Source: Polaribacter sp. KT25b
GTDB lineage: Bacteria > Bacteroidota > Bacteroidia > Flavobacteriales > Flavobacteriaceae
Length of the DNA: 64,000 bases
NCBI RefSeq assembly: GCF_900105145.1
Contig: NZ_LT629752.1
Span: forward strand, 1,770,001-1,834,000
Direction: 5' to 3'
Both the position numbers and the translations under genes were made by a program. Shown here one piece after another: positions 41,220 to 58,920 of the stretch (the stretch's first letter is position 1; each line of letters starts with the position of its first letter). The notes under the pieces were generated by a model. The model was given only the letters and a program-made list of their open reading frames with translations, made no database searches and was not told the DNA's origin.

Positions 41220-41270
41220 CGTTTTAACCTGTATCAAATAAAATTTATAATTACAATTCTTCTGATTTAT

Positions 41271-41915
41271 TTAGCCTCTTCTTGTTCCAATCCAAACAGT
41301 GTCTTTAGGAATATAATACGTAATTTTACCATCTTTATCTGTGTAAGTTCTCAATTTTTGTTTTAATTTTCGTTTATACCATTTTTGAAAATTATAATAT
41401 TCTTCAATTGTATAATATTCATCTTCAGTCATTTTTAAATCTTCACTGGTAAAGTAATTATCATCTTTGGCATAAAGCCAATTAAAAGTATCTAACTCCG
41501 TTTTTAAATTTCCATAATTTTGAGTTGGCATTTTTTTTTGATTTTCTGGACGATAAAAAGTAATATCATAAAAGTTTAAAAAACCATCAATTGCACAAAC
41601 TACTTGCGAATAGGCTATATTGGGTTCGTACAACCAAATTGCTAAATAATAAGGTTTATCCAACGTTTTTAATTGTGTTTCCCAACTATTAAAAATAGCA
41701 AGTAAACTTTCTAAAATTAGTTTTCGAGATTTTCTTTTTGGAACCGGAATTGGTTTTCCTGATATTGAAGTATCACTAAAAGGACGAACCCAAACTTTTT
41801 CATAGTTTCTTTGATATTCTTCTAAATCTTTTAAATCTAGTTTTAAACTGCTATTTTTCCAATTTTCTATATTTTTGAAAATACGTTTGTGTCCTCTTAA
41901 CTTTTTAGTTTTCAT
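41271..41915 (-). CDS. Hypothetical protein at the distal end of the kinase locus
   Basis: A 214-residue soluble, basic protein without signal peptide. I do not recognise it. It has an N-terminal basic stretch (KTKKLRGHKR), a middle hydrophobic/aromatic part (PYYLAIWLYEPNIAYSQVVCAIDGF) and an aromatic, charged helical C-terminal part (YYTIEEYYNFQKWYKRKLKQK). It is the last gene of the co-directional minus-strand locus before a strong terminator. Confidence 0.65.
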   Translation of the reverse strand: MKTKKLRGHKRIFKNIENWKNSSLKLDLKDLEEYQRNYEKVWVRPFSDTSISGKPIPVPKRKSRKLILESLLAIFNSWETQLKTLDKPYYLAIWLYEPNIAYSQVVCAIDGFLNFYDITFYRPENQKKMPTQNYGNLKTELDTFNWLYAKDDNYFTSEDLKMTEDEYYTIEEYYNFQKWYKRKLKQKLRTYTDKDGKITYYIPKDTVWIGTRRG

Positions 41916-41967
41916 TTTTCTTACTTTATTTTAAATAACCAATTTTTAAATTCTTCTTATTATCAGA

Positions 41968-42126
41968 TTAATCTGTATATAAAATATTTAAAGTTGTTTT
42001 TTTATTTAACCATGTTTTATGCTTATTATTGGCTGTTTGAGCAAAAGAAACGTTGCATAAAAATATCAGAAATAAAAATATAGCGATTTTTAATACAGTT
42101 ATTCTAATATTAAATTTACAAACCAT
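41968..42126 (-). CDS. Very small secreted peptide (candidate)
   Basis: A 52-codon frame with a convincing signal peptide: basic N-terminus, hydrophobic core IAIFLFLIFLC, then VSFAQ. After cleavage a basic peptide of about 22 residues remains (TANNKHKTWLNKK...). It lies in the 272-base gap between two hypothetical genes, on the same strand. It may be a genuine small exported peptide or the 5' remnant of a larger secreted gene. Nothing else is seen in the gap. Confidence 0.45.
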   Translation of the reverse strand: MVCKFNIRITVLKIAIFLFLIFLCNVSFAQTANNKHKTWLNKKTTLNILYTD

Positions 42127-42187
42127 TTTATATACTTTATACATCTTGAATACTAAAAATCTTTCTTTTTCTAAGAGTTCTTCACTC

Positions 42188-42748
42188 TTATTTCTGTTGT
42201 AAAGAAGTTATGTATTCTTTTGTTTTTTCTGATAAAATAATAGCGTCATGTTCATAATCTGAAGTCCATTGAAATAGATACACATTATAACCATCAAAAC
42301 ACTCAATAGGATTTAATTCAAATGCTTTTAGCGTCATTAAAAAGCGTTCCATTCCTCCATAAGGATAATTTCCTGTAGAGAATTTTACAATTACTTCGTT
42401 TTCTTTTTGTTTTTCTAAAGCATCTAAATCAACTTCAAAACCATATTCTAAATAATTAAAAAAAGATAAAATATCTGCTCTTACCAAAATACTTTTGCTT
42501 TTATCGTACGAAAAATAATTGCGTAAAAACTCTTGAGCGTAAACAGGAAATAACTGATTAAAAAGTTCAATTTTAGGTTTATCTTCATCCATAAAATGGT
42601 CAATTTCTTCATCAGTAGCAGTTTCCCAATCTATTGTTTTTTCTTCTTCTTGATAACCTGGTTTTCTAACAGCACACATATGATTATATACTTCTTTAAA
42701 AGCTATAAATTTTTCTTGTGATTTTATTGCGAATTTAATGTAGAGCAT
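42188..42748 (-). CDS. Hypothetical protein
   Basis: A 186-residue soluble acidic protein with no signal peptide (MLYIKFAIKSQEKFIAFKEV...). It is a mixed alpha/beta sequence that I do not recognise. It starts 2 bases after the stop of the 42751-43146 gene, so the two are one transcription unit and probably work together. Confidence 0.65.
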   Translation of the reverse strand: MLYIKFAIKSQEKFIAFKEVYNHMCAVRKPGYQEEEKTIDWETATDEEIDHFMDEDKPKIELFNQLFPVYAQEFLRNYFSYDKSKSILVRADILSFFNYLEYGFEVDLDALEKQKENEVIVKFSTGNYPYGGMERFLMTLKAFELNPIECFDGYNVYLFQWTSDYEHDAIILSEKTKEYITSLQQK

Positions 42749-42750
42749 AT

Positions 42751-43146
42751 CTAATTAATCAATTTAAGTTGATGCATTTTAATTTTTATTTTATTTTTTT
42801 TAGCATCAATAAAAGCATATTCTGTGAAACAAATTTCGTTTTCATTTTCATCTAAAATATTAACATCTCTAAACCCAAGTTCTAATTTTGGATTTTGATA
42901 TCTTTTAGAAAAATGAGCCATTAAAACTTCAAAAATATATTCATGATTTTCTTCAAAAAAATGAATTGCATTTATTTGAGCATCATTCATGCTATGTAAA
43001 TAACTAACGCTAATACTATCAGCATATAAATTACAATAGCCATCAGTTTCCTTGTTTACAAACACTTCATTACCGTCGTCATTTACTTTTCTAAAACCTA
43101 ATGTTGATGACACATATATATAATCATCATAATCTCTTGTTTGCAT
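42751..43146 (-). CDS. Hypothetical protein
   Basis: A 131-residue soluble, acidic protein, beta-rich in appearance (YDDYIYVSSTLGFRKVNDDGNE...). Not recognised. It is coupled to the downstream 186-residue protein gene by a 2-base gap and follows the secreted papain-like protease by 100 bases. That gap contains only an A12 run. Confidence 0.65.
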   Translation of the reverse strand: MQTRDYDDYIYVSSTLGFRKVNDDGNEVFVNKETDGYCNLYADSISVSYLHSMNDAQINAIHFFEENHEYIFEVLMAHFSKRYQNPKLELGFRDVNILDENENEICFTEYAFIDAKKNKIKIKMHQLKLIN

Positions 43147-43246
43147 ATTTTATTTTATTGCTTTGTAAACTTTGATCTTATTTTATATGATTAATTATGA
43201 AGTTTAATTATTACTTTTCAAAAAAAAAAAATCTTTATTTTATGAT

Positions 43247-44443
43247 TTAATCTACTTTAATATCATCCTCTTCAAGCGTTAATTTAAAAATATTAGATTC
43301 TTTTAATCTTTCTTTATAAACTAATTTATATGTTTTATTCTTTTTTACATTTACGTTTGCACTTGAATATCCAAAAATTAAAGATTTCTTGTTTTCTTTT
43401 TTAATAATTGAAGTTGTTATAATTTCAAACTTATGTTTTCCTTTAGTCGCAAATACTCTATTATGATATTTAACGCCTTTTTTATTCATTCCAAAAATCT
43501 TTGGATCTTCATCATCAATCTTAACGTATAATTCTTGATGTACTTGTAAAGAACCAAGTGCATGTACAAAATCTATTTCTACTAAGTCTGTATCATTATT
43601 TGGTTCTGGTAAAAAATCGTTTTTTGTAACATCTGCCCAAGAAAAAGCGGTAAGTCCAGAAGTATTGTAACCAACCCAAGCATAGCCATTTAATCCCCAA
43701 TTTACTCCCCAAGAATTTTTAATTAACCAAGCTTCTTTATCATCATCCCAACCAATAAGAGTTACTGCATGTGTAGGAAAAGTATTCATTGTTTTTATAA
43801 CACCACTGTTATAATTTTGAAACTCGAATGTATTTGCATCTAAAGCAACAGACATTGCACCATGTTTAACCAATAAGTTTTTAATTTCTACTGTTGATGG
43901 ATTTCCAGAAATAAAATTATAATTTGCTAATTTTACATTAGATTTTCCTTCGGATAAAGCACAACTTTTTTGTACTGTTTCATAAGGTGTTTGCCCTTCT
44001 AAAGCTACTTCAGCATCGTTTTCTAGTAACCAATTAAAAGCAAAATCATACCAACCACCACTACAACCATTACTATCATTTACACAATTAACAAAAGATT
44101 GTTCTGATAAATCTAACTTTTCTTTATTTATTAAAGCATGGCTAGATTCTATTGTTGCAACAGCAGCAAAAGCCCAACAAGAACCACAAGTACCTTGATC
44201 TTTTACAGAAGTTACACCATTATAGTCTCTTAAATCGAAAGAAGTAGCGTTTTCATCACCATATTTAGTTAATGTAAGATCATATATTTTTTGACCATCT
44301 TGAATATAACCACTTTGTACTTTAAACAGTTTTCTAAATTCTTGATCTGTTGGTACAACTAATCCTGTACCTTTTTGCTGTGCATTTGCAAAGAAAGAAT
44401 ACAATGATAGCATTGTAATAAAAACAATTCTTAAATTTTTCAT
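43247..44443 (-). CDS. Secreted C1 family (papain-like) cysteine protease
   Basis: A 398-residue exported cysteine protease. Signal peptide to about residue 21 (FFANAQ), a short pro-like region (25-65), then the papain domain: Gln83 in KDQG, catalytic Cys89 in CGSCWAF, CSGGWYDFAF (127-136), His225 in THAVTLIGWDDD and Asn243 in IKNSWGVNWG. A C-terminal beta-rich extension (about 285-398) is extra to papain. Papain-like C1A enzymes are uncommon in flavobacteria. The gene lies 4 bases after a chagasin-like inhibitor gene, inside the kinase/FHA locus. Confidence 0.93.
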   Translation of the reverse strand: MKNLRIVFITMLSLYSFFANAQQKGTGLVVPTDQEFRKLFKVQSGYIQDGQKIYDLTLTKYGDENATSFDLRDYNGVTSVKDQGTCGSCWAFAAVATIESSHALINKEKLDLSEQSFVNCVNDSNGCSGGWYDFAFNWLLENDAEVALEGQTPYETVQKSCALSEGKSNVKLANYNFISGNPSTVEIKNLLVKHGAMSVALDANTFEFQNYNSGVIKTMNTFPTHAVTLIGWDDDKEAWLIKNSWGVNWGLNGYAWVGYNTSGLTAFSWADVTKNDFLPEPNNDTDLVEIDFVHALGSLQVHQELYVKIDDEDPKIFGMNKKGVKYHNRVFATKGKHKFEIITTSIIKKENKKSLIFGYSSANVNVKKNKTYKLVYKERLKESNIFKLTLEEDDIKVD

Positions 44444-44447
44444 AGTA

Positions 44448-44816
44448 TTATTTTTTAATATTTACTTTAATTATTTTTTTAAAATCTTCTGGAATAGAAT
44501 CTAATTTTTCAAAACTTCTTAAAAAATGAAACTCTAAATTATAAGTACCTGGTTTAAGTGCTTTAAAAGTGAAAACCTTGTTATAACTAACTAATAATTT
44601 ACCTTCACTTTTAATTATTTTTTTCGAAGTGTTTATTTGTTCTACTTCTGGTATTGGTATATAACTCCATTGATAACCTCCATCACCTTCTTTTTCTAAT
44701 TCAATTTTAAACTCTTCATTTACTTTGTAGCCTTCTGTAGCTTTATAGTTTTCTATTAATTTACAGCTCTGTAATGAAATTGAAATTAAACAAACTATTA
44801 AAAATATTTTTTTCAT
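44448..44816 (-). CDS. Chagasin-like (I42) cysteine protease inhibitor lipoprotein
   Basis: A 122-residue lipoprotein (lipobox LQSC, Cys18). The mature domain has features of the chagasin family: a GDGGYQW loop (44-50) in place of the usual NPTTGYxW, and FKALKPGTYNLEF (84-96) followed by LRSFE where the family has RPW. It would be a tight inhibitor of papain-type proteases. Its stop is 4 bases before the start of the adjacent papain-like protease gene, which strongly supports the call, though the loops are divergent. Confidence 0.68.
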   Translation of the reverse strand: MKKIFLIVCLISISLQSCKLIENYKATEGYKVNEEFKIELEKEGDGGYQWSYIPIPEVEQINTSKKIIKSEGKLLVSYNKVFTFKALKPGTYNLEFHFLRSFEKLDSIPEDFKKIIKVNIKK

Positions 44817-44830
44817 ATACCAGTTTTTTT

Positions 44831-45736
44831 TTAAAAGATTATATCAAGATAATCATCATCATAATCTATATCATCACCAGATGTATCGTCATTATCTGAT
44901 TCTTCGTAAGAACTGTCTTCAAAATCTGTCTCTTCAAAAGAACTGTCTTCAATATTAGTTTCTTCAATTTCTGTTTCCTCATATGTAACTCCGCCTTCAA
45001 TCCCTTCAGCTTCTTCTGTTGCGTCACCATCATTTAAACCTTCAATAATATCTACAGTTTCACCAATTTCATCAAGTGTTACAAATTCTTCTAATTCCGA
45101 ATTAGAATCAATAATATCGTTGTCATCATTAAAAACAATATCATCATAACTTATTTCATCAATTATTTCTTCGTCAATAGTTTCGTCTTCGTTTTCATTA
45201 TTTTCATCAGTTTCATCCTCATCAATTATAACATCAGTTTCATCTGTATCGTTTTTACTATAATCAGTATTATCAAAGTCTGAATGTTCTTTAATTTTAT
45301 CGTAAAATTCTTGTTTTTCTTCATCAGAAAGCGCGTCCCATTCTTCTTTATTTAAAGTATGATAAGTGTTGCCATGCCAATTAAAAAAACCTGAACCATC
45401 TGTATCTTCTCTTGCTGTTTTAAAAGCTTCTGCAAAAGACATATCTTCTTTAACAGCATCAGAAAATTCTATATCTGTTGGAACTTCAAAATCAAAAGTT
45501 TCTTCTGTCTCAGCATCAGTTTCATCAGTATCAACATCTTCTTTTTCAACTATTTTACCTGTTGCGCTTAAAAATGCATATTGAGATCCAATACCAGCAA
45601 TTAATCCTAAAGCAGCAGCAAATGGTAATCTTTTTGCTTTAAGTAATTCAATTTGTTTTTTGGTAACTCCTTTAAATTTTATTGTATTTTTTTTTGATGG
45701 TTGACTTGCTCCTTTTATGAATGTCTTTTTCTCCAT
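44831..45736 (-). CDS. Highly acidic single-pass membrane protein
   Basis: A 301-residue protein of unknown function. A basic N-terminus (1-36) and one membrane helix (about 37-58, LPFAAALGLIAGIGSQYAFL) precede a long Asp/Glu/Thr-rich domain with DTDETD- and EETxxED-like repeats. Near residues 118-150 there is one ordered island, FFNWHGNTYHTLNKEEWDAL and SDEEKQEFYDKI, which resembles a short motif I have seen in other Bacteroidota proteins. The many threonines in acidic context would suit phosphorylation or FHA binding. It lies 14 bases from the chagasin-like gene. Confidence 0.7.
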   Translation of the reverse strand: MEKKTFIKGASQPSKKNTIKFKGVTKKQIELLKAKRLPFAAALGLIAGIGSQYAFLSATGKIVEKEDVDTDETDAETEETFDFEVPTDIEFSDAVKEDMSFAEAFKTAREDTDGSGFFNWHGNTYHTLNKEEWDALSDEEKQEFYDKIKEHSDFDNTDYSKNDTDETDVIIDEDETDENNENEDETIDEEIIDEISYDDIVFNDDNDIIDSNSELEEFVTLDEIGETVDIIEGLNDGDATEEAEGIEGGVTYEETEIEETNIEDSSFEETDFEDSSYEESDNDDTSGDDIDYDDDYLDIIF

Positions 45737-45831
45737 TTTTTTCTTTTTAAAGTTTATTAAAATTATCTCTTTTTTTATTTCTGATAAAATTTACTTCACG
45801 AAACGTAGGTTTTATTAAATGAAAACAAAAT

Positions 45832-46431
45832 TTAAGCTTGTGTTAAGGTAAAAACAGTATCTCCTACTTCTACTTCATCACCAAGATGCAGTAAAATTTG
45901 ATCTTCGTTTTCTAGTTTTGTTTTATTAACGAGTGTGCCGTTTGTACTTTTTAAATCTTCTATGATAAATTGTACTTTGTTCTGTTGTTTCTGAACTTTT
46001 ATACTACAATGCGCTCTAGAAAGATAATCGTCATCCAAAATCCAAGAGACATCTTTTTCTGCATTAAAATTACCACTTGCTCCTTCCGGATTTCTACCAA
46101 TAAATATGGTATAATTTTCTTTCGGATTTTTAACAGCTAAATTACTTGCAGAACCATTACTTTTTAAAATCTGTAATTTGAACTTACTTTTCGATTTTTT
46201 ATTGATTCCTACAACATTTGTACCTGGTTCATTTTCCATAAAATGATTAAAACCTTGTCCGTTTTCTGATACTTGTGTACCAGGATTATTTTGTACTGAT
46301 CTAGGCTTTAAGTTTAAATTCATCTTATGCCCACAAAATTTACAAGTTACTACTCTGCTAATGCCAAGTTCTATCCATTCTTGTAAAACAGTGTTATTGG
46401 TATTGCATTTTTTACATTTATATCCTGCCAT
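45832..46431 (-). CDS. FHA domain protein with N-terminal zinc ribbon
   Basis: A 199-residue soluble protein. A zinc ribbon (Cys6, Cys9, Cys30, Cys33) is followed by a linker with two similar threonine motifs, NNPGTQV (Thr52) and NEPGTNVV (Thr71). A C-terminal FHA domain (about 108-199) has the phosphothreonine-binding residues IGRN, SRAH and STNGT. It should bind phosphothreonine peptides, and its own linker may be phosphorylated by the adjacent kinases. Confidence 0.93.
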   Translation of the reverse strand: MAGYKCKKCNTNNTVLQEWIELGISRVVTCKFCGHKMNLNLKPRSVQNNPGTQVSENGQGFNHFMENEPGTNVVGINKKSKSKFKLQILKSNGSASNLAVKNPKENYTIFIGRNPEGASGNFNAEKDVSWILDDDYLSRAHCSIKVQKQQNKVQFIIEDLKSTNGTLVNKTKLENEDQILLHLGDEVEVGDTVFTLTQA

Positions 46432-46439
46432 ATTATTTA

Positions 46440-46715
46440 TTATTCAAAAATTTCATCAAAATCTAAATCTATTTCATCCAAAGGATTTAACTCATTAAAA
46501 TCTTCTTCAAAATCATCATCTTCAAATTCATCAATTGTTATTTGTGCTGTATCTATTTCTAGGTCTTCTAGTGTAATTTCATCAGTAATTAGCGTATTTT
46601 CTATTTCTTCTAAATCCAAAGAAACAAAGTTTTCATCCGCTAAAAATTCTGTATCTGGTTTTTTAGGAACTTCAATTTCTATGGTAATCATTTCTATGTT
46701 TTCTTTATTTTTCAA
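46440..46715 (-). CDS. Small very acidic protein
   Basis: A 91-residue protein made mostly of Asp, Glu, Ile, Leu and Thr (TLITDEITLEDLEIDTAQIT and DDDFEEDFNEL), no signal peptide, probably disordered. The start could be the ATG at 46715 or the one 8 codons later. It is sandwiched between two FHA genes with gaps of 8 and 11 bases. It may be a scaffold or phosphorylated partner; function unknown. Confidence 0.7.
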   Translation of the reverse strand: MKNKENIEMITIEIEVPKKPDTEFLADENFVSLDLEEIENTLITDEITLEDLEIDTAQITIDEFEDDDFEEDFNELNPLDEIDLDFDEIFE

Positions 46716-46726
46716 AAAATAACTTT

Positions 46727-47392
46727 TTATTTAACCCAATTACATTTGCATTTCGGACATTTCTTTTTAGATTTCCAAAATCGCCAACTTTTAGAAGTCA
46801 TATCAAACTTACATTTTGGGCAATGAAATTTTTCTGAAAAATCGATATACAAATCCTCTAGTTTTTCTTTTACTTTTTTATCAGAAATTGATGCTGTAGA
46901 AATTAAACCACCAATAGTACCAATACCTAACATTAAATATATTCTTATTCCTTCGATAGATTTTACATAGGCATTGTTATAAACCAACACCATTAAACCA
47001 ATAGTAATACTACCTTTTAAAAGTGCAGATTTTAACTTAAAATATTTATTTACATTCTGTTTTTCATTTTTATATTTTAGTTCAATTTCTTTTAGTTGAT
47101 GAAACTCTGTAGAAAACTCAGTTCTATTTTTTAAAATATAAGCCTGCACTTTTTTAAAAAAATCCTCTACATCTAAAGAAAATGTACCTAATTGAATGCG
47201 TTGCTTTTCATCAATTCTTTTCGATATAATATTTTGACCGTTAACAGATGTGCCATTTGTAGAGTTTAAATCTTTTAGCGTAAAAGTTTTAAAATCATTG
47301 GCAATTTGCAATTCTGCATGATTACCACTAACGGTATTGTTATCTATTTTGTAATCGTTATTTTCGTTTCTTCCTATTGTAAATGCTTTCAT
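46727..47392 (-). CDS. FHA domain membrane protein with C-terminal zinc ribbon
   Basis: A 221-residue protein. N-terminal FHA domain (1-75) with IGRN (6-9), VSGNHAE and LNSTNGTSV (43-50), all canonical. A helical region follows, then two membrane segments (about 126-140 and 151-168) and a C-terminal zinc ribbon (Cys191, Cys194, Cys212, Cys215). It should recruit threonine-phosphorylated proteins to the inner membrane. Its stop is 11 bases from the acidic small gene, and it starts 1 base after the LytTR gene. Confidence 0.93.
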   Translation of the reverse strand: MKAFTIGRNENNDYKIDNNTVSGNHAELQIANDFKTFTLKDLNSTNGTSVNGQNIISKRIDEKQRIQLGTFSLDVEDFFKKVQAYILKNRTEFSTEFHQLKEIELKYKNEKQNVNKYFKLKSALLKGSITIGLMVLVYNNAYVKSIEGIRIYLMLGIGTIGGLISTASISDKKVKEKLEDLYIDFSEKFHCPKCKFDMTSKSWRFWKSKKKCPKCKCNWVK

Positions 47393-47393
47393 A

Positions 47394-48053
47394 CTAATAC
47401 CAAAGTAAATTTTGTTTCACTCTTTTTATATAAATTTCTCCTAATTTTAATTCTATTTCTGTAGCTCCTTTAAAAACTATATGCTGACTTTGTACTTTTT
47501 TAATTCTGTTGATGTTTACTATAAAAGATTTACCTATTCTATTTAAAAAAGAGACTTCTTTTATTCTATTTTCTAATACATTTAAAGGATATGATATACA
47601 TTTTCTAGTTCCATTTTCTAAATAAATATAGGTGTAATTACCACTCCCTACACAAAAACAAATACTTGTAATGTCTACCAATTCAAAACCACCTTTAAAA
47701 TTAATTTTTAATTTTTCTTTGATTTCTTCTTTTATCGGTGGATATTTTTTAAATCGATTTCTAAATTCATGAAACCCCACAGATAACTCTTTCTGATAAT
47801 GCATAAAAGCCAACACATTTGCTTTCCATGCTAAAAATGCTACTTCTTTATTTGTAGAAACCACCACAAAATGTTCATTTTCATTGGTGTTTATTAATTT
47901 ACGTAACAATATTCTGTTATCTAAAGAATCTTCTTTTAAGTAAAAAAAAGATAATTTACTAGAAACTGAAAGTAAACTAGCATTTTCTTCTAAAAATGAA
48001 GCATCTTCAATATTAGAAAAATTTAAACATTGTATGGTATTTATTTGTTTCAT
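47394..48053 (-). CDS. LytTR-type DNA-binding regulator
   Basis: A 219-residue regulator. The C-terminal LytTR domain (about 122-219) shows FCVGSGNYTYIYLENG, FLNRIGKSFIVNINRIKKV and a terminal RVKQNLLWY. The N-terminal half has the rhythm of a response-regulator receiver (VVVSTNKEVAFLAWKANVLAFMHY), but I cannot find the acidic phospho-acceptor, so it is probably a degenerate or pseudo-receiver. In this locus it may be controlled by Ser/Thr phosphorylation or FHA binding. Directly coupled to the next FHA gene. Confidence 0.85.
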   Translation of the reverse strand: MKQINTIQCLNFSNIEDASFLEENASLLSVSSKLSFFYLKEDSLDNRILLRKLINTNENEHFVVVSTNKEVAFLAWKANVLAFMHYQKELSVGFHEFRNRFKKYPPIKEEIKEKLKINFKGGFELVDITSICFCVGSGNYTYIYLENGTRKCISYPLNVLENRIKEVSFLNRIGKSFIVNINRIKKVQSQHIVFKGATEIELKLGEIYIKRVKQNLLWY

Positions 48054-48158
48054 TAAAATTTGATTCTAATTAGGTTTTGAAATTGAATTTGTATAGTTTT
48101 TTATATTTTTCTTGATTCATAATTACTGCTCTCATTTATATTTTACACTAAACTAATT

Positions 48159-50503: not shown

Positions 50504-50530
50504 TTCATTAAGATTGATGATCTTAATGAA
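50504..50530. repeat. Intercistronic hairpin between kinase 3 and kinase 4
   Basis: TTCATTAAGAT (50504-50514) pairs perfectly with 50520-50530 around a 5-base loop, in the 135-base gap between two kinase genes. A second AT-only inverted repeat (TGTAG-T7/A7-CTACA) lies at about 50450-50474. Neither has a good minus-strand T-tail, so they could modulate read-through or mRNA stability. Confidence 0.55.
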
Positions 50531-50549
50531 TAGTCCTTTAAAAATAATT

Positions 50550-53174
50550 TTATTCTTTTGTTTCATACTTAAAGCCAAAACGATCTCTTTTTTCTAAAAT
50601 CAAATTGTCTTCGTTATCATATCTGTAAAAAAATGTAGATTGACTTTCATCTGAATTGTAATCACGAAAAGAAAGAATTACACAGTTTTTTATATTTTCA
50701 TCGTATAAAATTTTTCCTTTTCTATTTATAGAAAATAATGTAGCATCTTTAATTGAATTATAACTACTATCATCTCCACTTAGAGTTAAATAGTTATTTT
50801 TTCCTTTTTCGTATATTAATTCAGATCTTCCTTTTAATTCTTGTTCAAATAATAACTTATTATCTAAAGAATTTAAAGAAATACTTGTAGTATTTTTAAG
50901 CTTATTAGCTTCTAATTTCACTATTGAATACTTATGATAAGTAAGCCTTTTTACTTTCTCTGGATTTCCCCAAGCATAATATTCTAAAGGTTTTGATTTT
51001 TTTCCTAAAATATTTCCATCAAAATCTAAATAATAATCAACAACACTGTCTTTTATCACTCCATTAGAAAAACCTCTAGATTGATTAACAAGAATAGAAT
51101 CTCTTTTGATACTTGCAGATTTTATTATGTAGTTGCCTAAAGTTTTTTCCCAAATGACCTGACCATTATAATCTAATTTTTTAATAATCCCTTTTGGTGT
51201 TTTTAAATCTAGTCCATTATTCCAGTATAACAAATAGTTACTATCTAATGGTAAAAATTCATGCCACATCCCTCTAAAGTTAGTATCGCTAAATGCTTTA
51301 TCAATTAATTTTGAGCCTTTAGAATCTAATACAATTAACCAATCATTACCAATTTCTGAATCATGTTTTCTAAAACTTCCAGAAACAATAATATTATTTT
51401 TATCATTGGTTTTAACGCTTACATCACCTAAATTGTCTTTACTAAATTTTGTTTCCCAAATCAAATCGCCTTGTTTATCTAATAACATAATCCATAAATC
51501 TTTTTGAGGCTTATAAACTCCCTTTAAACTAAAATAATTATAAGCAATAATTGCTGTTTTATCCTTATCAATAGTTAAAGCATTATAGACTAAATCTTTT
51601 TTTGAAGTACCAAAAGATTTTGTCCAAACCATTTCTCCATATTTATTTATAAACTTCAATTCAATGTTATTATTCCCATTAGAATTTGTGTTTCTTGAAA
51701 TTAAAATATTATCATTTTTTAAATTAAAGACTTTGGGCTCGTCAGGAAGCATATGATTTTCAGTCCATTTTCCTGAACCATTTTTATTTTTTTCTAATTT
51801 AATTGACCATGATAAAGATTTCATTAAACTATCTAGCTTCAAAATAAAATTACTTTTAGGATAATCTTTTTCAAATTTCTGAAACCCTAAAACAGTATTA
51901 CTTTCTATAGCTTTTATCCAATCTAAATTTTGCTTTACTTCTTCTAAATTTTCAATACTTGCTGTATTATCTAAATAGTCTTGATAAGATTCTTTTGTAT
52001 TTATTTGTTTTGCTGAAGCCCAAATTTTATTTTCTTTATAGCTCTTATTTGCAAAATATCCTAATGGTATGCAAATTAATAGCACAAATGCAATTGCTGT
52101 TTTTATAAATTTAAAATTCTTTTTTTTAGGTTTATTAGTACTATAATCTTTTGGTTTAAATGATTTTATATTTACTTGTTCCTCTTCTTGTTGTTTATCT
52201 TGATGTAAATTCTCTGATCCTTTTATAATAGTTGCGTCATTATTACGAGAGATAGTTTCAGTATCTTTATTTATTTGTTTAGGAAAAACACTATTTACAT
52301 TTGAAGTGATTATTGTTTTTTTATCATCTAAAAGTAAAAATAATTCATCAGTATTTTGAACTCTTTTTGTTAAGTCTCTTTCTAAACAAACCATTACTAC
52401 TTTTTGCCAATTACCAGGAAGTCCTTGTAATTCTTCACTTAAATCTTTATGCAAAATCTTTTGAGTAATTTCATTTTGCCATTCTGCAGTTGCTGTTCCT
52501 TGGCTATCTGCTTCAAAAAGTGTTTTTCCTGTTAGTATTTCATAAGCAATTGCACCAAAACTCCATAAATCTGTATTTAGTTTTAATGGCAAACCTTTTA
52601 ATTGCTCTGGACTAGAATATTGTAAGGTTCCGCCAGCAAAACTATTTGTAAAACGGGATGCTTTACCATCGCCTTCTGCTTGTTTACTTAAACCAAAATC
52701 TGTGATTTTAGGGATAATTTCTCCTCTTCTATCAACAACTAAAATATTGCTCGGTTTTAAGTCTCTATGCACAACATTATGCTGATGTAAAAAGGCAATT
52801 CCTTCTAAAACTCCTTTTGTAATTTTCTCTCTCTTAGCAATACTAACCTCATTATTTTTTAAATAATGAGATAAATTACCCAAAGAATAATATTGCATAA
52901 TTCCATAATCAAAAACAGTTGGGAAAGATTCAAAACGAAATACTTCTTCATAATTAGCTATATTTTGATGCGCACTTAAATTTTCTATTGCCTTAAATTC
53001 CTCTAATAAAGAAAACTCTTTATCACCAACTATTTTTACTTCAGATACTTTTATGGCAACTTCTCTATCTAATGCATTGTCATAAGCTTTATAAACAGTA
53101 CCAAAACTTCCTCCTCCTATATTGTCGGTTTTAAGATCGAATTCGTATCTTTTTCTAAATTCTTGTTGTGTCAT
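50550..53174 (-). CDS. Ser/Thr protein kinase, transmembrane, propeller-like sensor region (kinase 3)
   Basis: Hanks-type kinase of 874 residues with the same intact catalytic motifs as its neighbours (Lys42, HRDLKPSN, DFG). The linker carries NNDATIIKG (Thr315), followed by one membrane helix (about 357-376). The outer region starts with a short helical Y-x-x-YL segment like that of kinase 4, then repeated beta units such as NLKNDNILISRN, LWIMLLDKQGDLIWETKF and WLIVLDSKGSKLI, suggesting a PQQ/NHL-like propeller. Residues about 69-141 are coded by DNA identical to kinase 2. Confidence 0.92.
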   Translation of the reverse strand: MTQQEFRKRYEFDLKTDNIGGGSFGTVYKAYDNALDREVAIKVSEVKIVGDKEFSLLEEFKAIENLSAHQNIANYEEVFRFESFPTVFDYGIMQYYSLGNLSHYLKNNEVSIAKREKITKGVLEGIAFLHQHNVVHRDLKPSNILVVDRRGEIIPKITDFGLSKQAEGDGKASRFTNSFAGGTLQYSSPEQLKGLPLKLNTDLWSFGAIAYEILTGKTLFEADSQGTATAEWQNEITQKILHKDLSEELQGLPGNWQKVVMVCLERDLTKRVQNTDELFLLLDDKKTIITSNVNSVFPKQINKDTETISRNNDATIIKGSENLHQDKQQEEEQVNIKSFKPKDYSTNKPKKKNFKFIKTAIAFVLLICIPLGYFANKSYKENKIWASAKQINTKESYQDYLDNTASIENLEEVKQNLDWIKAIESNTVLGFQKFEKDYPKSNFILKLDSLMKSLSWSIKLEKNKNGSGKWTENHMLPDEPKVFNLKNDNILISRNTNSNGNNNIELKFINKYGEMVWTKSFGTSKKDLVYNALTIDKDKTAIIAYNYFSLKGVYKPQKDLWIMLLDKQGDLIWETKFSKDNLGDVSVKTNDKNNIIVSGSFRKHDSEIGNDWLIVLDSKGSKLIDKAFSDTNFRGMWHEFLPLDSNYLLYWNNGLDLKTPKGIIKKLDYNGQVIWEKTLGNYIIKSASIKRDSILVNQSRGFSNGVIKDSVVDYYLDFDGNILGKKSKPLEYYAWGNPEKVKRLTYHKYSIVKLEANKLKNTTSISLNSLDNKLLFEQELKGRSELIYEKGKNNYLTLSGDDSSYNSIKDATLFSINRKGKILYDENIKNCVILSFRDYNSDESQSTFFYRYDNEDNLILEKRDRFGFKYETKE

Positions 53175-53183
53175 TATAAAATT

Positions 53184-55289
53184 TTAATAATAAAGGTAGA
53201 TTTCATTGATATCTTTTCTTGATATCCCTTCTCCACTCTCAAACATGTTTTTTATTCTATTTTTTATTCTTAACCTTTTTAATTTATCAAAATAAACATC
53301 CCATTTTTTTTTATTTGATTTATATCCATACCTATTAAAATACCAACTCGCTTTTTCATTTCCTAATTTAGCTGCTTTAAGATACCACTTCTCTGCTTCT
53401 TTCTTGTTTTTTTCAACACCACTTCCTGATGCATACATCCTTCCTATGTTAATTTGAGCAAATAATTCATCTTGATTAGCAGCTCTTTGATACCACATCA
53501 TAGCTTCTTTATAGTCTATTGAAACTCCATAACCATATTGATACATGAAAGCTAAATTATTTTGTGCAATAGCAAAACCTTGCTCTGCGGATTTACGATA
53601 CCATATTAGTGCTTTTTTATAACTTATATTAAATCCTCTTCCATATTGGTACATAGAACCTAAATTAGATTGTGCACTAGCACTTCCTTGTTCTACTGCT
53701 TTAAAGTACCATTTTTGAGCTTCTTCATAGTTTATAGGTACCCCTTTTCCAAAATGATACATATACCCTAAATAATTTTGAGCATCCACACTTTTATTTT
53801 TTGCGGCTTTCAAAAACCATTTTAATGCTTCTGTATAATGCTGTTTAACTCCATTGAAACCATAATAATAATCTTCTCCTTTTGTTAAAGAAATTGTATC
53901 TTTTAAATATGTTCCTAACCAATTCTCCTTTTTATTAATATAGAAACTAGAATCTTTTATACTTACGATCGCACTATCGTTTACAAACAAAGCAGCGCTT
54001 TTATATTTGGCAGGTATAATAATTTTATTTTCTTGTTTATATCCATAAAAGTTTCCTTCTTTAAATATACTCAGTTTTGCATCTTGGACTTTTATATCTT
54101 TAGAAGAAAACATAAAATACCCAATTGTACTTGCTATTAAAATTACTACAGAAGCTACTGCAGGCAACATCCATTTTGATTCTTCCTTTTTTAGTTTTGT
54201 TACTTTTTGATTTGTGTAAGGTTTAGGTTTTTCTACTACTTTTTCTTCCTTCTTGTTTCCTTTTATAATCGTAGCATCATTTTTAGATAATGCAGGACTT
54301 TGTGAAGTTTCTTTTGTTTTTTCTACATCCTTTTTTAGCTCCTTATTCCCTTTTATAATTGTAGCTTCATTATTCGACTCAACACTTTTTTGAACGTTCT
54401 TATTTTGTAATTCATTTGAATTAATTACACTTTCATCAGCATTTAAAATTTTAAATAGAATAACTGTATTCTGGACTCTTTTGTTAACATCTCTTTCTAA
54501 ACAAAGTCGTACTACTTTTTGCCATTTTGATGGTAAATTTTGTAGCTCTTCATTGATATCTGCATGCAATATTTTTTGTGTAATGGTATTCTGCCATTCT
54601 GCACTTGCAGTTCCTTGGCTATCTGCTTCAAAAAGTGTTTTTCCTGTTAAAATTTCATAAGCAATTGCGCCAAAACTCCATAAATCTGTATTTAATTTTA
54701 ATGGCATTCCTTTTAATTGCTCCGGACTAGAATATTGTAAGGTTCCGCCAGCAAAACTATTGGTAAAACGGGATGCTTTACCATCGCCTTCTGCTTGTTT
54801 ACTTAAACCAAAATCTGTAATTTTAGGAATAATTTCTCCTTTTCTATCAACTACTAAAACATTGCTTGGTTTTAAGTCTCTATGCACAACATTATGCTGA
54901 TGTAAAAAGGCAATTCCTTCTAAAACTCCTTTTGTAATTTTCTCTCTCTTAGCAATACTAACCTCATTATTTTTTAAATAATGAGATAAATTACCCAAAG
55001 AATAATATTGCATAATTCCATAATCAAAAACAGTTGGGAAAGATTCAAAACGAAATACTTCTTCATAATTAGCTATATTTTGATGCTTTTTTAAGTTTTC
55101 TATTGCCTTAAATTCTTCTAATAGAGAAAACTCTTTATCACCAACTATTTTTACTTCAGAAACTTTTATGGCCACCTCAATGTCTAACACAGTATCGTAC
55201 GCTTTATAAACCGTACCAAAACTCCCACCACCAATAGTATCGGTTTTGAGATCGAATTCGTAACGGTTTCTAAATTCTTGTTGTGTCAT
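53184..55289 (-). CDS. Ser/Thr protein kinase, transmembrane, WG and Sel1 repeats (kinase 2)
   Basis: Hanks-type kinase of 701 residues with complete catalytic motifs. The linker carries the conserved threonine motif twice: NNEATIIKG (Thr310) and KNDATIIKG (Thr340). Membrane helix 374-394. Outside, a WG-type unit (FYGYKQENKIIIPAKYKSAA, about 414-433) is followed by about six Sel1 repeats (465-670; for example AQNYLGYMYHFGKGV and AQSNLGSMYQYGRG), which form a TPR-like solenoid for protein binding. The coding DNA is a mosaic: codons 1-60 match kinase 4, codons about 69-141 match kinase 3. It ends 9 bases before kinase 3. Confidence 0.94.
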   Translation of the reverse strand: MTQQEFRNRYEFDLKTDTIGGGSFGTVYKAYDTVLDIEVAIKVSEVKIVGDKEFSLLEEFKAIENLKKHQNIANYEEVFRFESFPTVFDYGIMQYYSLGNLSHYLKNNEVSIAKREKITKGVLEGIAFLHQHNVVHRDLKPSNVLVVDRKGEIIPKITDFGLSKQAEGDGKASRFTNSFAGGTLQYSSPEQLKGMPLKLNTDLWSFGAIAYEILTGKTLFEADSQGTASAEWQNTITQKILHADINEELQNLPSKWQKVVRLCLERDVNKRVQNTVILFKILNADESVINSNELQNKNVQKSVESNNEATIIKGNKELKKDVEKTKETSQSPALSKNDATIIKGNKKEEKVVEKPKPYTNQKVTKLKKEESKWMLPAVASVVILIASTIGYFMFSSKDIKVQDAKLSIFKEGNFYGYKQENKIIIPAKYKSAALFVNDSAIVSIKDSSFYINKKENWLGTYLKDTISLTKGEDYYYGFNGVKQHYTEALKWFLKAAKNKSVDAQNYLGYMYHFGKGVPINYEEAQKWYFKAVEQGSASAQSNLGSMYQYGRGFNISYKKALIWYRKSAEQGFAIAQNNLAFMYQYGYGVSIDYKEAMMWYQRAANQDELFAQINIGRMYASGSGVEKNKKEAEKWYLKAAKLGNEKASWYFNRYGYKSNKKKWDVYFDKLKRLRIKNRIKNMFESGEGISRKDINEIYLYY

Positions 55290-55352
55290 TATATATAAAT
55301 AATTTTCATTATATCTTGTACTTCTTAAACTAAATATTTCTAAAATACTTTT

Positions 55353-58007
55353 TTAATATTCATCTCTAGGTTTCCAACAAGCCATCATTGGCACTTTTAC
55401 CTCTAAAACTTCACTAGGTGAATTAAATCCAGCTCTTACATACATATAGCCAATTCCTCTATAACCACCACCATCTTTAAAACCAACTGATACTTTTTTT
55501 GTACCATCTTTTGTATATCTTTCTGATGAGGAATAACTTGAATAATCTACTTCATCATCATATCTTTCTTTGTTAAAGGCACTTGCTGCTGGCCAAATTT
55601 GTACATTAGAAGATTGCCCTAAAGTATAATCAAAAGAATAAGACCATGAATTTGAATATTTAGAAATGGTTTCTGGTTGATCTCCTTTAGCTAATTCATC
55701 TATAGTAGCACTACTAGCTTTTAAAGTATTGCCATATTTAGAAGGTGTAATTAAGTAGGTATTTTGATTTTTATAATCATCAATAACAGTTAAATAGCTT
55801 TTAGCTTTTTTATCTCCTTTATTAGCTGCTTCTCTAAATAATTGTTTTGCTTTTGTTATGTTTTTAGAAACTCCACCAACTCCAAAAAAATAAAATTCTC
55901 CTACTTTTCTTTTAGAAATTGTATGCCCTTGGTTTACAGCTTTTGTATACCACTTAAAAGCTTCTTTCCAATTAAATGTGGTACCCTGACCATTATCGTA
56001 CATGAATGCAATTGTGTATTGTGAATTAACATCATTTAAATATGCTGCTTTTTTATACCAATTTAAAGCCTCTGTATAATCTTTTTTAGCACCATATCTA
56101 CCATAATATAATATCTCTCCTACAGAAGTTTGTGAAATTAAATAATCTTGATTTCCTGCTTTTTTAAACCAATAAAGAGCTTTATCTATATTTTTTTCAA
56201 CTCCTAAGCCATCTCTGTACATTACAGCTAAATTATGCTGACCTCCCCGATAACCTTGGTCTGATGCTTTTTGATATAATTTTACAGCTTCCTTATAATC
56301 TTGTCTAAGACCATTCTCTCCATAATGATAAGAAACACCAAGATTTGATTGTGCTATTGCATCTCCATTTAAGACAGCTTTTTTATACCAATATATTTTC
56401 TTGTCAATATTATCATAAATAAAAGCATTTATTCTCCCTAATCTTCTTTGCGCAACTCCATTACCAGCATTTGCGGCATCAATAGTATTTTGCAAATTAT
56501 TTCCTTTTTTAATCCAACTGCTTAATTCACTTTTGGGAATTATTTTATAATCTATAGTTATTTTGTTTATTGGCTTTTTTACCTCTTCTTTTTTAACAGG
56601 TTGTATAATTTCTTTCTTTTCTATGGTTTCCGACTCTTTTATTGTCTCTTTTTTAATTGGCTTTTCAACTTGTTCACTTATAGAGTCTTTAATAGCTATT
56701 GTAGGATTTGGTATCCAAAAACCTGTTTTATCAATAAAAAAACTACTATCTTTTGTATCAACATTTGCTACTCCATTTATAAAACTTCTAGCCAAACTAT
56801 ATTTTGCAGGTATAACAATTTTATCATCAACTTTATATCCAAACAACCCATCTTTTTCATATATCTGATAATTGGTATTTAAAGGTTTTATTTCTTCCGG
56901 CTTTATCATAGAATAACCAGCTACACCTAAAATACCAATAACTGCTGCTGCAATAGTTGGTATCATCCATTTTGGTTTTTCTTTTTTAGGAATTGGTTGC
57001 GTTTTCTGAATTATTTTTTGCTTTGGTGCAGCTTCTTTTTTAGGTTCTTCTATCTTTTTTGTAGAAATTACTTTTTCTGGTTCTTTACTTTTAATAATAG
57101 TTGCATCATTATTTGCTATTGGTGCAGCTAACGCTATATTTTCTTCTATTTTCTCATTATTTAAAATGGTAAATAATTCATCCGAAGTTTTAATTCTTTT
57201 GGTTAAATCTCTTTCTAAACATGCTTTAATTACTCTTTGCCATCTTTCTGAAACCATATTTAATTGCTCACTTACATCTTTATGCAAAATCTTTTGTGTA
57301 ATTTCATTTTGCCATTCTGCAGTTGCAGTTCCTTTTACATCAGCTTCAAAAAGTGTTTTACCAGTTAAAATTTCATAAGCAATTGCACCAAAACTCCATA
57401 AATCTGTATTTAATTTTAATGGTAATCCTTTTAATTGCTCTGGACTAGAATATTGTAAGGTTCCACCTGCAAAACTATTTGTAAAACGAGATGCTTTACC
57501 ATCGCCTTCTGCTTGTTTACTTAATCCAAAATCAGTTATTTTAGGAATTAATTCTCCTCTTCTATCAACAACTAAAATATTACTTGGTTTTAAATCTCTA
57601 TGAACTACTTTATGTTTGTGTAAAAAAGAGATTCCGTTTAAAATTCCTACAACTAAACTTTCTCTTTTTTCTAGATTTAAGTTATTATTCTTTAAATAAT
57701 TAGATAAATTTCCTAAAGGATAGTATTGCATAATACCATAATCATAAATTCCATTAAAAGATTCATATCTAAATACTTCTTCGTAGTTTGCTATAAATTT
57801 ATTTACAGGAATATTTTCTATTGCTTTAAACTCTTCTAAAAGAGAAAACTCTTTATCTCCTACAAATTTTACTTCAGATATTTTTATGGCTACTTCCCTA
57901 TCTAAAGAATTATCATAAGCTTTATAAACTGTACCAAAACTACCTCCACCAATTTTATCGGTTTTAATACTAAATTCATATCGTTCTTTAAATTCTTGCT
58001 GTGTCAT
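55353..58007 (-). CDS. Ser/Thr protein kinase, transmembrane, WG and Sel1 repeats plus C-terminal domain (kinase 1)
   Basis: Hanks-type kinase of 884 residues, the most divergent of the four but with intact Lys42, HRDLKPSN (136-143, catalytic Asp138), DFG (159-161) and SPEQ. Linker motif ANNDATIIKS (Thr303). Membrane helix about 347-367. The outer part has a WG-type unit (GLFGYKVDDKIVIPAKYSLA, 387-406), a Lys/Glu-rich spacer, seven or so Sel1 repeats (about 520-760) and a unique C-terminal domain with a Tyr/Ser-rich stretch and KVPMMACWKPRDEY. It follows the phosphatase gene by 46 bases. Confidence 0.94.
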   Translation of the reverse strand: MTQQEFKERYEFSIKTDKIGGGSFGTVYKAYDNSLDREVAIKISEVKFVGDKEFSLLEEFKAIENIPVNKFIANYEEVFRYESFNGIYDYGIMQYYPLGNLSNYLKNNNLNLEKRESLVVGILNGISFLHKHKVVHRDLKPSNILVVDRRGELIPKITDFGLSKQAEGDGKASRFTNSFAGGTLQYSSPEQLKGLPLKLNTDLWSFGAIAYEILTGKTLFEADVKGTATAEWQNEITQKILHKDVSEQLNMVSERWQRVIKACLERDLTKRIKTSDELFTILNNEKIEENIALAAPIANNDATIIKSKEPEKVISTKKIEEPKKEAAPKQKIIQKTQPIPKKEKPKWMIPTIAAAVIGILGVAGYSMIKPEEIKPLNTNYQIYEKDGLFGYKVDDKIVIPAKYSLARSFINGVANVDTKDSSFFIDKTGFWIPNPTIAIKDSISEQVEKPIKKETIKESETIEKKEIIQPVKKEEVKKPINKITIDYKIIPKSELSSWIKKGNNLQNTIDAANAGNGVAQRRLGRINAFIYDNIDKKIYWYKKAVLNGDAIAQSNLGVSYHYGENGLRQDYKEAVKLYQKASDQGYRGGQHNLAVMYRDGLGVEKNIDKALYWFKKAGNQDYLISQTSVGEILYYGRYGAKKDYTEALNWYKKAAYLNDVNSQYTIAFMYDNGQGTTFNWKEAFKWYTKAVNQGHTISKRKVGEFYFFGVGGVSKNITKAKQLFREAANKGDKKAKSYLTVIDDYKNQNTYLITPSKYGNTLKASSATIDELAKGDQPETISKYSNSWSYSFDYTLGQSSNVQIWPAASAFNKERYDDEVDYSSYSSSERYTKDGTKKVSVGFKDGGGYRGIGYMYVRAGFNSPSEVLEVKVPMMACWKPRDEY

Positions 58008-58053
58008 TTTTTTAAAATTTTAATTATTGATGTTAGTATGTTTCTTTAAATTC

Positions 58054-58920
58054 TTAAAATCGAAACCACTTCTTTTTCTTTGGTTTTTCTATTTCTTCCT
58101 CCTGATTATCTTCTAGACTTACAGTTTCTAAACTATCATTTTCATGTAATGAATCTATAGACGACCATTCTAAAGGAATTATAGTTGTATTAGGAATATC
58201 CTTTTTTTCTACTTCGCATAAAAAAGCTGTATTATTATCTATACTATCTTCTGAACATTTTTTTTCTATAATCGCTATTTTTTCAGTTAGGTCTTTAGTT
58301 TCATCGGCAAGTAACTCTAACAAAGCAACATCAGAAAAAGCTTCAGAAACACCATCTGAACAAATAAAAATAAGATCACCTTTTCTTATATCCGTAATAA
58401 AATGGATTTCTGGCTCTGTGACTTTGTCTTTAAAATTTGCTTTAATCGCTTTAAAGATTTGATTATTCATAGGATGTTTTCTACCAGCTTCTCTAGAAAT
58501 TTCGCCATTTTTAACTAAATTTCCAACTAGAGAATGATCCCAAGTATGCCAAAATGTATTGTTGCTTGGTCTTACAATATATACCCTACTGTCGCCAATA
58601 TGTGTAGAGTAAAATCCGTTTTCAGAAATAAAAATAGCGGCTAAAGTTGTTGCCATACCTACTAAATCTTCTTTTTCTTTGATATAGTTATTTAATTTTT
58701 CTTGAGCATTGATAATAGCATCATAAATTTTCTCTTTGGATAAGTCATCTTGAGTATTTTCAAGTCTTTTTAAAATTAAAGTAGCCACCTCTTTACTTGC
58801 AATTTCTCCTCTTACTTCTCCACCAACACCATCACAAACTATAAAGCTATTTTTAGAACACGTTAAATAATCTTCATTTACTTTCTTTTTGCCTATGTGA
58901 GTGTAACTTTTATAGTTCAT
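58054..58920 (-). CDS. PP2C family Ser/Thr phosphatase
   Basis: A 288-residue metal-dependent phosphatase, cytoplasmic. Metal ligands are seen in VCDGVGG (Asp30), ICSDGVSE (Asp189) and SIDNNTAF (Asp228), with GMATTLAAIF and THIGDSRVY between. Beyond the catalytic domain a 45-residue tail contains NTTIIPLEW (Thr245-246), resembling the ATIIK motif of the kinases, an acidic run and a basic KKKKWFRF end. As first gene of the locus it would reverse phosphorylation by the four kinases. Confidence 0.95.
   Translation of the reverse strand: MNYKSYTHIGKKKVNEDYLTCSKNSFIVCDGVGGEVRGEIASKEVATLILKRLENTQDDLSKEKIYDAIINAQEKLNNYIKEKEDLVGMATTLAAIFISENGFYSTHIGDSRVYIVRPSNNTFWHTWDHSLVGNLVKNGEISREAGRKHPMNNQIFKAIKANFKDKVTEPEIHFITDIRKGDLIFICSDGVSEAFSDVALLELLADETKDLTEKIAIIEKKCSEDSIDNNTAFLCEVEKKDIPNTTIIPLEWSSIDSLHENDSLETVSLEDNQEEEIEKPKKKKWFRF

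Follow-up and report, generated by a model that had tools for sequence, protein, structure and literature searches.

What would a flavobacterium do with four kinases that share a near-identical catalytic domain, one phosphatase and a cysteine peptidase, all encoded side by side? The question is raised by a block of genes in Polaribacter sp. KT25b, whose genome is one contig of 3.95 Mb (NZ_LT629752.1) and of which we analysed the 64,000 nucleotides (nt) from position 1,770,001 to 1,834,000 (the window, whose numbering is used below unless another locus is named). Pfam searches and the list of open reading frames (ORFs) agree with a first-pass annotation, made from the letters alone, that kinases, a PP2C-type phosphatase, FHA-domain proteins, a LytTR-domain protein, a peptidase and an inhibitor lie together on the minus strand, between 41271 and 58920. 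We give about even credence to the reading that this cassette is a phospho-switch, which would carry envelope signals to a transcription regulator and a predicted-exported cysteine peptidase; the reading draws on gene content, gene order, conservation, the recurrence of a threonine motif and catalytic residues.

The block holds 15 minus-strand ORFs of at least 90 amino acids (aa), two plus-strand ORFs within the K1 gene being disregarded. In the direction of transcription these encode PP2C, the kinases K1, K2, K3 and K4, LytTR, FHAa, Acid91, FHAb, Acid301, an I42-type inhibitor, a C1-type peptidase, B3, B2 and B1, followed by an intrinsic terminator downstream of B1 (41187..41220, minus strand, as are all cassette features given below). 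This terminator, with its 14-bp stem (-17 kcal/mol, z = -5.6), went unreported by a generic terminator scanner and bears out the strong terminator previously claimed for the end of the block. Intergenic gaps of 1-135 nt likewise match the earlier figure of up to about 135, with the exception of the 272 nt between B1 and B2.

Scattering of these genes in relatives had been named as the outcome that would dissolve the locus. That check was run, and the core proved syntenic, both within the Flavobacteriaceae and in Bacteroidota outside that family. P. glomeratus (G470; L118/L119), strain GF1 (L006) and, up to its contig end, a metagenome-assembled genome of Croceivirga (L005) all keep the order of the non-kinase genes, GF1 having one kinase gene, placed after the peptidase. 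The order in G144 is PP2C, LytTR, FHAa, Acid91, FHAb, an interruption of ~3.5 kb, Acid301, I42, C1 and a kinase, with FHAb there being a tblastn match at 26% identity that was not called as one long ORF. The position of Acid91 is conserved in all four of these relatives, and in Bizionia arctica FHAa, Acid301 and a kinase are all matched, on equally long contigs. The interruption in G144 (L120, stitched 14394-17937) carries two plus-strand ORFs of 663 and 238 aa. More distant forms retaining FHAa, a protein related to Acid301 (ACID) or a small acidic protein, FHAb, PP2C and a Ser/Thr kinase (STK) were found in Dyadobacter soli (L007, with an FHAb-like ORF at 11423 and a PP2C ORF at 11976), G815, G759 (three loci), G698 and G910, while G932 has a partial set. 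A plasmid of Parabacteroides distasonis encodes a histidine kinase, LytTR, FHA, a hypothetical protein, FHA, PP2C and STK in a row, which is the core cassette; among plasmids, a near-identity DNA search and a search with Acid301 each returned nothing. Five of these genomes (G698, G759, G815, G910 and G932) were read, besides the window's own, out of 27 matched by one search of 395 genomes, the other 21 being unread. A contig scan with the FHAa alignment gave 80 loci, mostly unrelated FHA proteins because the scan relied on a single FHA peptide pattern. Three of the loci (L005, L006 and L007) were of use; another three (L021, L035 and L043) turned out on reading to contain different clusters of FHA, PP2C and kinase genes, and 74 were unread.

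We then used an ACID alignment (A2) as the query for a wider census, so that loci were not picked by kinase or PP2C. Across the phylum A2 matched 5 of 395 genomes, all of them already rows of the alignment, and added no locus. In the family of G815, which judging from L007 is probably that of Dyadobacter and Spirosoma, it matched 42 of 150 genomes in 12 of 36 genera (three already alignment rows), and in the family of G698 it matched 4 of 117, two of which proved false. After tandem matches in one locus had been merged, places already covered set aside and one 26-residue match (G1079) left out, 54 stretches were fetched; dropping the false positives L252 and L253, which we take to be metallopeptidase-like, left 52 real loci. 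Gene calls came from our own hidden Markov models (HMMs) built from the earlier loci, and detected FHAa in 51 of the 54 stretches, FHAb in 50, PP2C in 47, STK in 46, a caspase-family C14 peptidase in 34, an ECF sigma factor in 26 and LytTR in 2. The five core genes (FHAa-ACID-FHAb-PP2C-STK) are complete in 44 of the 52 loci, and five of the eight incomplete ones (L211, L221, L227, L228, L231, L234, L242 and L249) lie near a contig end. Neighbouring genes are adjacent and co-directional for FHAa-ACID in 50/51 cases, ACID-FHAb in 46/50, FHAb-PP2C in 46/47, PP2C-C14 in 31/34 and C14-STK in 21/32. These loci are not independent, because many of the genomes are congeners.

The kinases K1-K4 (701-884 aa, genes of 2.1-2.7 kb; Pkinase scores of 163-170 bits in Pfam) are 75-90% identical across residues 1-285 and diverge past that point. 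HRDLKxxN and DFG are the catalytic motifs of eukaryotic-like kinases, and with HRDLKPSN and DFG in every copy all four are predicted to be active. K1 (55353..58007; Pkinase 163 bits) has its kinase domain at residues 1-285, a linker with NDATIIKS (ATIIK at 57090-57104), a transmembrane-like segment at residues 345-363 and Sel1 repeats (137 bits). K2 (53184..55289) has the same layout, with two ATIIK motifs in its linker (54351-54365 and 54261-54275) and Sel1 repeats after the transmembrane-like segment. In K3 (50550..53174; linker NDATIIKG, ATIIK at 52221-52235) and K4 (48159..50414; linker NDATRIKG, ATRIK at 49446-49460) the transmembrane-like segment is followed by a C-terminal part without a clear Pfam family. 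The kinase domains are mosaic (maximum chi-square p of 0 to 0.0075 in the 6 triples tested out of 12 possible, 2000 permutations), and this mosaicism across 50550-58007 suggests gene conversion of the kinase part only, with the ectodomains diverging. In P. glomeratus the same core comes with five kinases. Their best matches to K1 and K2 from residue 381 onwards are long ones at 35-36% identity (the Sel1-repeat parts), with shorter stretches at up to 61%; for K3 the alignment covers no more than 51 residues (27%) and for K4 no more than 124 (40%). Since the eleven non-kinase proteins are 69-90% identical between the window and P. glomeratus and the kinase C-termini are little alike, the core is stable and it is the sensors that turn over. 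Other C-terminal parts occur in this kinase family: FGE-sulfatase domains are common (P. glomeratus L118:10696-12903 and other matches), a fold that diversity-generating retroelements, too, employ in their variable proteins, and the cassette kinase L245:6540-8132 ends in a TonB_C domain, a possible link to outer-membrane receptors.

The phosphatase that would oppose these kinases (58054..58920; PF13672, 55 bits) carries a threonine motif of its own, TTIIP, in its C-terminal tail (58174-58188). A search of the genome with the K3 kinase domain gave four matches, every one in this locus, and a search with PP2C gave the cassette's own gene as its single match. These searches record similarity to the query at a threshold of E ≤ 0.001, a level at which a distant kinase or phosphatase could escape. 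Because the genome's only kinase and PP2C matches fall within the cassette, the earlier description of a self-contained network has support. FHAa also had a single match, although FHAb next door was unlisted, so this search is uninformative on other FHA proteins. Some cassette PP2C proteins elsewhere (L222:11657-13177 and L248:11948-13795) have a transmembrane-like segment and WG repeats, and may also sense the envelope.

One threonine motif, a candidate phosphorylation site, recurs among these proteins. Within the otherwise variable linker between kinase domain and transmembrane segment, [DEN]xTx[IVLF] is present in 93 of 111 linkers (the usable ones among the best 120 of 820 kinase matches), compared with a mean of 24.8 and a maximum of 36 in 500 shuffles; for the fetched loci the count is 34 of 41, against 8.5 and a maximum of 17 when shuffled. 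Its usual form near the window is NNDATIIKG, and RTDVY, DQTEIF and DEKTKIL are found elsewhere. Acid301 (44831..45736) bears KTFIK at residues 4-8 (45713..45727), resembling the NDATIIKG of the linkers, and its near homologues start with MEKKTFIKG or similar in 18 of 21 database matches, the window's own included; the homologue P0168 gains the motif if a later start is used. FHAb has a threonine within its last 8 residues in 47 of 50 cases, compared with 24.6 (maximum 39) for random windows, and the window's own FHAb has PGTQV in its linker instead of a terminal motif. When the best threonine-centred 5-mers of ACID tails and kinase linkers were compared in 40 loci that had both (the others having none called by our cut-offs or being left out), same-locus pairs had a mean score of 9.20, whereas 5000 permutations gave a mean of 7.15 (maximum 9.00) and shuffled linkers 6.51 (maximum 8.03). 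A precedent for such a ligand comes from Agrobacterium tumefaciens, where, according to excerpts of PMC3953482, Fha binds DLPpTVVEI of TssL after PpkA-dependent phosphorylation.

The presumed readers of these sites are FHAa (46727..47392; PF00498, 64 bits), in which the FHA domain is followed by a hydrophobic, transmembrane-like stretch at residues 151-169 and a C-terminal zinc ribbon whose four cysteines are invariant in 23 aligned sequences, and FHAb (45832..46431; PF00498, 60 bits), with an N-terminal zinc ribbon, the PGTQV linker and an FHA domain. Between their genes lies that of the small acidic protein Acid91 (46440..46715). The LytTR DNA-binding protein (47394..48053; PF04397, 41 bits) has a confident AlphaFold2 (AF2) model for its LytTR half alone, the N-terminal ~115 residues being of uncertain fold. 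Both of the acidic proteins noted earlier are present, yet "acidic" under-describes Acid301, which combines the N-terminal threonine motif seen in its near relatives with a weakly hydrophobic stretch, a conserved domain and an acidic tail. It matched no Pfam family above the cut-off and no NCBIfam family, and an alignment of 25 sequences shows a conserved SFxEAF...FxWxGxxY..EEW block at residues ~95-150, the only part that AF2 models with confidence (predicted local distance difference test of about 73-88). Its best hydrophobic 19-mer, residues 39-57 (mean 1.44), divides the lysine-rich N-terminus with the threonine motif from the domain and acidic tail, and within the first 130 residues a 19-mer hydropathy of at least 1.3 is reached by 55 of 58 relatives and of at least 1.6 by 37 of 58. 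Acid301 is thus predicted to be single-pass, with its threonine in the cytoplasm.

On the far side of the membrane would stand the peptidase. The C1 protein (43247..44443), with a signal-like N-terminus and a conserved C-terminal domain, is a clear papain-family member (PF00112, 177.8 bits against a cut-off of 20.7; the catalytic Cys, His and Asn occur in every one of the four homologues aligned). The protein encoded just upstream (44448..44816) has a lipoprotein-type signal (..SLQSC) and belongs to the chagasin family I42 (PF09394, 45.7 bits against a cut-off of 27.2), with no match by sequence to a solved structure at E ≤ 1. I42 precedes C1 in all four Flavobacteriaceae loci that reach that far, and is likely the inhibitor of the adjacent peptidase, judging from family and gene order. 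The 34 census loci with a C14 gene compare with about 0.7 of 52 expected by chance, given a background for PF00656 of about 0.014 per 20 kb (100 matches in about 147.5 Mb, from 20 cassette-bearing genomes with rounded sizes and cassette copies included). These caspases measure 250-296 aa, bar one fused to PP2C, and have the GHG and DxCxxG motifs in 32 of 34 and a hydrophobic stretch just before the domain in 33 of 34. PP2C and C14 share one polypeptide in G759b (by Pfam) and in the congener L206 (by our own HMMs), and in G698 a CHAP-domain protein adjoins FHAa. We infer that peptidases of different clans occupy one slot, C14 in some loci and papain in Flavobacteriaceae, and that they would act outside the inner membrane, the basis for the latter being their signal-like leaders.

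Taken as a working scheme, the phospho-switch would operate as follows. Ligands or envelope state would be sensed by the C-terminal ectodomains, which vary (here Sel1 among others, in P. glomeratus FGE and in other loci TonB_C), and the near-identical kinase domains would phosphorylate the linker threonine (NDATIIKG) and the N-terminal threonine of Acid301 (KTFIK). The phosphorylated sites would be bound by membrane-located FHAa and cytoplasmic FHAb, which would form a membrane hub; Acid301 could serve as an adaptor passing this state across the membrane to the peptidase or its inhibitor; LytTR (elsewhere perhaps an ECF sigma factor or LuxR-type regulators) would adjust transcription; and PP2C would reset phosphorylation. 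The proposal in the first-pass annotation of a path from envelope sensing to transcription and/or proteolysis is supported in part, in that the conserved neighbours (papain with chagasin, or caspase; LytTR, ECF-sigma and LuxR-type regulators) fit it. More tentatively, since we hold it possible but somewhat doubtful, the arrangement may be a Bacteroidota-wide transmembrane phospho-switch: a threonine code shared by kinase linkers, adaptor and FHA tails would be read by the FHA pair and would gate cysteine peptidases of the periplasm (in one branch a caspase, in the other a papain held by a chagasin lipoprotein), with swappable ectodomains feeding many signals into one core.

Several observations weigh against this phospho-switch. 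In the family to which the window belongs the cassette is seldom found: the FHAa model matched 2 of 397 genomes, own included. Within the genus, PP2C at E ≤ 1e-10 was found in 4 of 166 genomes, of which the own genome and P. glomeratus are close and G528 (31%) and G574 (29%) are weak matches in unread loci; 59 relatives yielded 2 matches for FHAa (own and one weak) and 2 for PP2C (own and G041 at 31%, of which only the short locus L004 was inspected), and no other cassette among these 59 in either search. Gaps of 95-272 nt leave space for internal promoters. The ECF sigma factor called in 26 of 54 stretches lacks a background control and is often kilobases away and on the other strand, and such a gene also occurs in the window outside the cassette (32517-33026). 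Nor is the peptidase obligatory, because 18 of 52 loci showed no C14, although some of these stop at the end of a contig, and the C1, I42 and CHAP models had no match in any of the 54 stretches; the Parabacteroides version lists no peptidase among the annotated genes read. The Acid301 homologues of G144, P0170 and P0175 are without the N-terminal motif, and the count of 18 in 21 concerns near relatives only, distant ACID proteins having other N-terminal threonine motifs that were seen and left uncounted. Some of the 40 best ACID-kinase pairs are uninformative Pro-rich low-complexity matches, and the shuffle and permutation controls ignore relatedness, so that clade structure is still in the data. 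Binding of Fha to TssL is weak in the account excerpted from PMC3953482 (dissociation constant of 1.58 mM; 0.54 mM with a longer peptide). The Acid301 model found no PDB match in a fold search at E ≤ 0.001, and the topology of the protein is uncertain because its membrane stretch is weak (1.44, and none at 1.5).

What else could explain such a locus? The kinases and FHA proteins might form a purely transcriptional network that controls LytTR or an ECF sigma factor, the peptidase-inhibitor pair being merely regulated or hitch-hiking, an explanation we consider unlikely though far from negligible. It would account for LytTR in the Flavobacteriaceae loci, G910 and G698, for the ECF sigma factor called by HMM in 26 of 54 stretches, for the LuxR-type response regulator beside G759c and for cassettes without a detected peptidase (18 of 52 without C14), yet it sits poorly with a cysteine peptidase that recurs in unrelated forms (papain in four Flavobacteriaceae loci, C14 in 34 of 52, CHAP in G698) and with the fusion of PP2C to C14 in two congeneric loci. 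That some gaps exceed 100 nt and the run in G144 is interrupted could point to unrelated co-oriented operons that are neighbours by chance, but order and orientation kept across families refute this for the core, B1-B3 excepted, and we find it hardly credible. An anti-phage or abortive-infection system with the peptidase as death effector seems improbable to us. Described conflict systems use caspases and kinases as effectors (excerpts of PMC7159879 and PMC8195603), KKP is an antiphage kinase-phosphatase module (excerpts of PMC11341870), kinase turnover is high, and the window contains a type I restriction R-subunit ORF (4-2499) and a HipA-like gene, both far from the cassette. PADLOC, run on nine window proteins including two kinases and on one caspase, however gave only kinase, PP2C and caspase matches, and K3 scored 99.5 bits for MADS6, against an NCBIfam cut-off of 460. 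Signal-like leaders on the peptidases would moreover be unusual for cytoplasmic suicide, and the closest flanking genes are of metabolic or envelope types.

Somewhat less likely than an anti-phage role, in our estimate, is that the locus is an orphan, namely the threonine-phosphorylation pathway of a type VI secretion system (T6SS) sited elsewhere in the genome. PpkA, PppA and Fha of the T6SS are the best-known kinase-PP2C-FHA set, and excerpts of PMC3953482 describe Fha as binding a similar threonine motif; kinase, PP2C and FHA are likewise encoded together, and the N-terminal cytoplasmic phosphothreonine of the A. tumefaciens inner-membrane protein TssL, as given in the same excerpts, resembles the threonine motifs of the cassette. 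The cassette differs in having several kinases with swapped ectodomains, two FHA-zinc-ribbon proteins, a peptidase and a transcription regulator, and its recurring partners in 52 loci include a caspase-family peptidase. FHAa reaches 34 bits for TagH (cut-off 120), FHAb being unlisted. In agreement with the first-pass annotation, Pfam gave no match to a T6SS family among the 37 window ORFs of at least 150 aa outside the cassette, the rest of the genome being unsearched, and on this window evidence of missing linked structural genes we rejected T6SS membership.

Other known systems were compared with the phospho-switch as candidates for membership. In the KKP prophage module, too, PP2C adjoins kinases with a common kinase domain and unlike C-termini, and FHA is involved, but there PP2C is followed by two kinases that are short (search filter of 900-1300 bp) and fused, one to CSD and one to FHA (excerpts of PMC11341870), whereas the cassette FHA proteins are separate; we rejected it, the cassette kinases being 701-884 aa long with a transmembrane-like segment and no CSD or FHA domain. 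PknB/StkP kinases have, in the portion of PMC12077195 consulted, the same succession of kinase domain, long linker with threonine sites, transmembrane segment and ectodomain, and differ from the cassette, where the linker threonine is part of a recurrent motif similar to one that other proteins of the locus carry. Membership of the PASTA kinases was rejected, K3 (the only one scanned against NCBIfam) reaching 175.8 bits over residues 5-396 against a cut-off of 450 and all four kinases having no PASTA domain in Pfam. GAP1-N2-linked systems set a kinase, often with a zinc ribbon or transmembrane helices, beside PP2C; they are described in the excerpts of PMC7159879 as actinobacterial and vWA- and GTPase-based, with no FHA pair, ACID or peptidase alongside. 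The TerY-P triad joins a VWA (TerY) protein with a kinase and PP2C. It was rejected since none of the 15 cassette proteins matched VWA, in keeping with the earlier statement that VWA/Ter genes are absent.

Kinase-PP2C-FHA sets are thus already known as a kind, and for this form of cassette no description was found in the openly accessible literature searched, subscription papers and preprints aside; the excerpts of PMC3482391 hold nothing on such a cassette. The cassette contains every kinase and PP2C match found in one genome and offers short candidate FHA ligands that can be tested. In it an STK-PP2C core is tied to apparently exported peptidases, caspase-family ones included. To our knowledge little is known of Ser/Thr phosphorylation in Bacteroidota. 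Should the scheme prove true, it would give cytoplasmic kinases of bacteria a route to the control of proteolysis beyond the inner membrane, and would also amount to a natural set of interchangeable kinase sensors.

At its downstream end the cassette is less well delimited. B3 (42751..43146) and B2 (42188..42748), both without a Pfam match, and B1 (41271..41915) are 74%, 84% and 72% identical to their P. glomeratus counterparts, but among the loci read this group (41271-43146) was seen beside the cassette in P. glomeratus alone, and for that reason its genes are doubtful members. The earlier claim of one locus stands for the core, whose order is kept in relatives, and is doubtful for B1-B3. 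Two gaps hold remnants. In that between B1 and B2, a decayed remnant (41968..42144) of a 368-aa gene, open in P. glomeratus, scores 102, a value that none of 300 shuffles reaches (maximum 46); the P. glomeratus gene occupies the same place and its product has a signal-like start. In the LytTR-K4 gap a kinase N-terminus (MNQEKYKKLYKFNFKT, then a stop; 48070..48120) scores 41 against the start of K2 (0 of 300 shuffles, maximum 32) and is likely the scar of a lost, fifth kinase gene. The control is not strict, as among 14 gap-by-reference comparisons a third, the B1-B2 gap against the kinase start, also narrowly exceeded its shuffles (34 against 33).

Around the cassette, all 6 congeners read keep the acyltransferase-rmuC flank (in one of them the contig stops at rmuC) and 4 of the 6 keep pepT, the fetched stretch hardly reaching it in the other two. 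No clean insertion site emerges, because the TIM barrel gene to the right of the cassette (59418) was not found beside rmuC within the congener stretches. The P. glomeratus cassette seems to be sited elsewhere, as none of seven tested flanking genes was found within its 36-kb stretch. Farther off, the window contains a cluster of RDD, SpoIIM, MoxR-type AAA and DUF58 genes (2872-9106), a Flavo-1 RNA (RF01705, 74 bits; 11997-12095), the HipA-like kinase gene mentioned above (PF20613, 78 bits; 17852-18631) and an ECF-type sigma factor gene adjoined by two DUF4252 genes (30948-33026).

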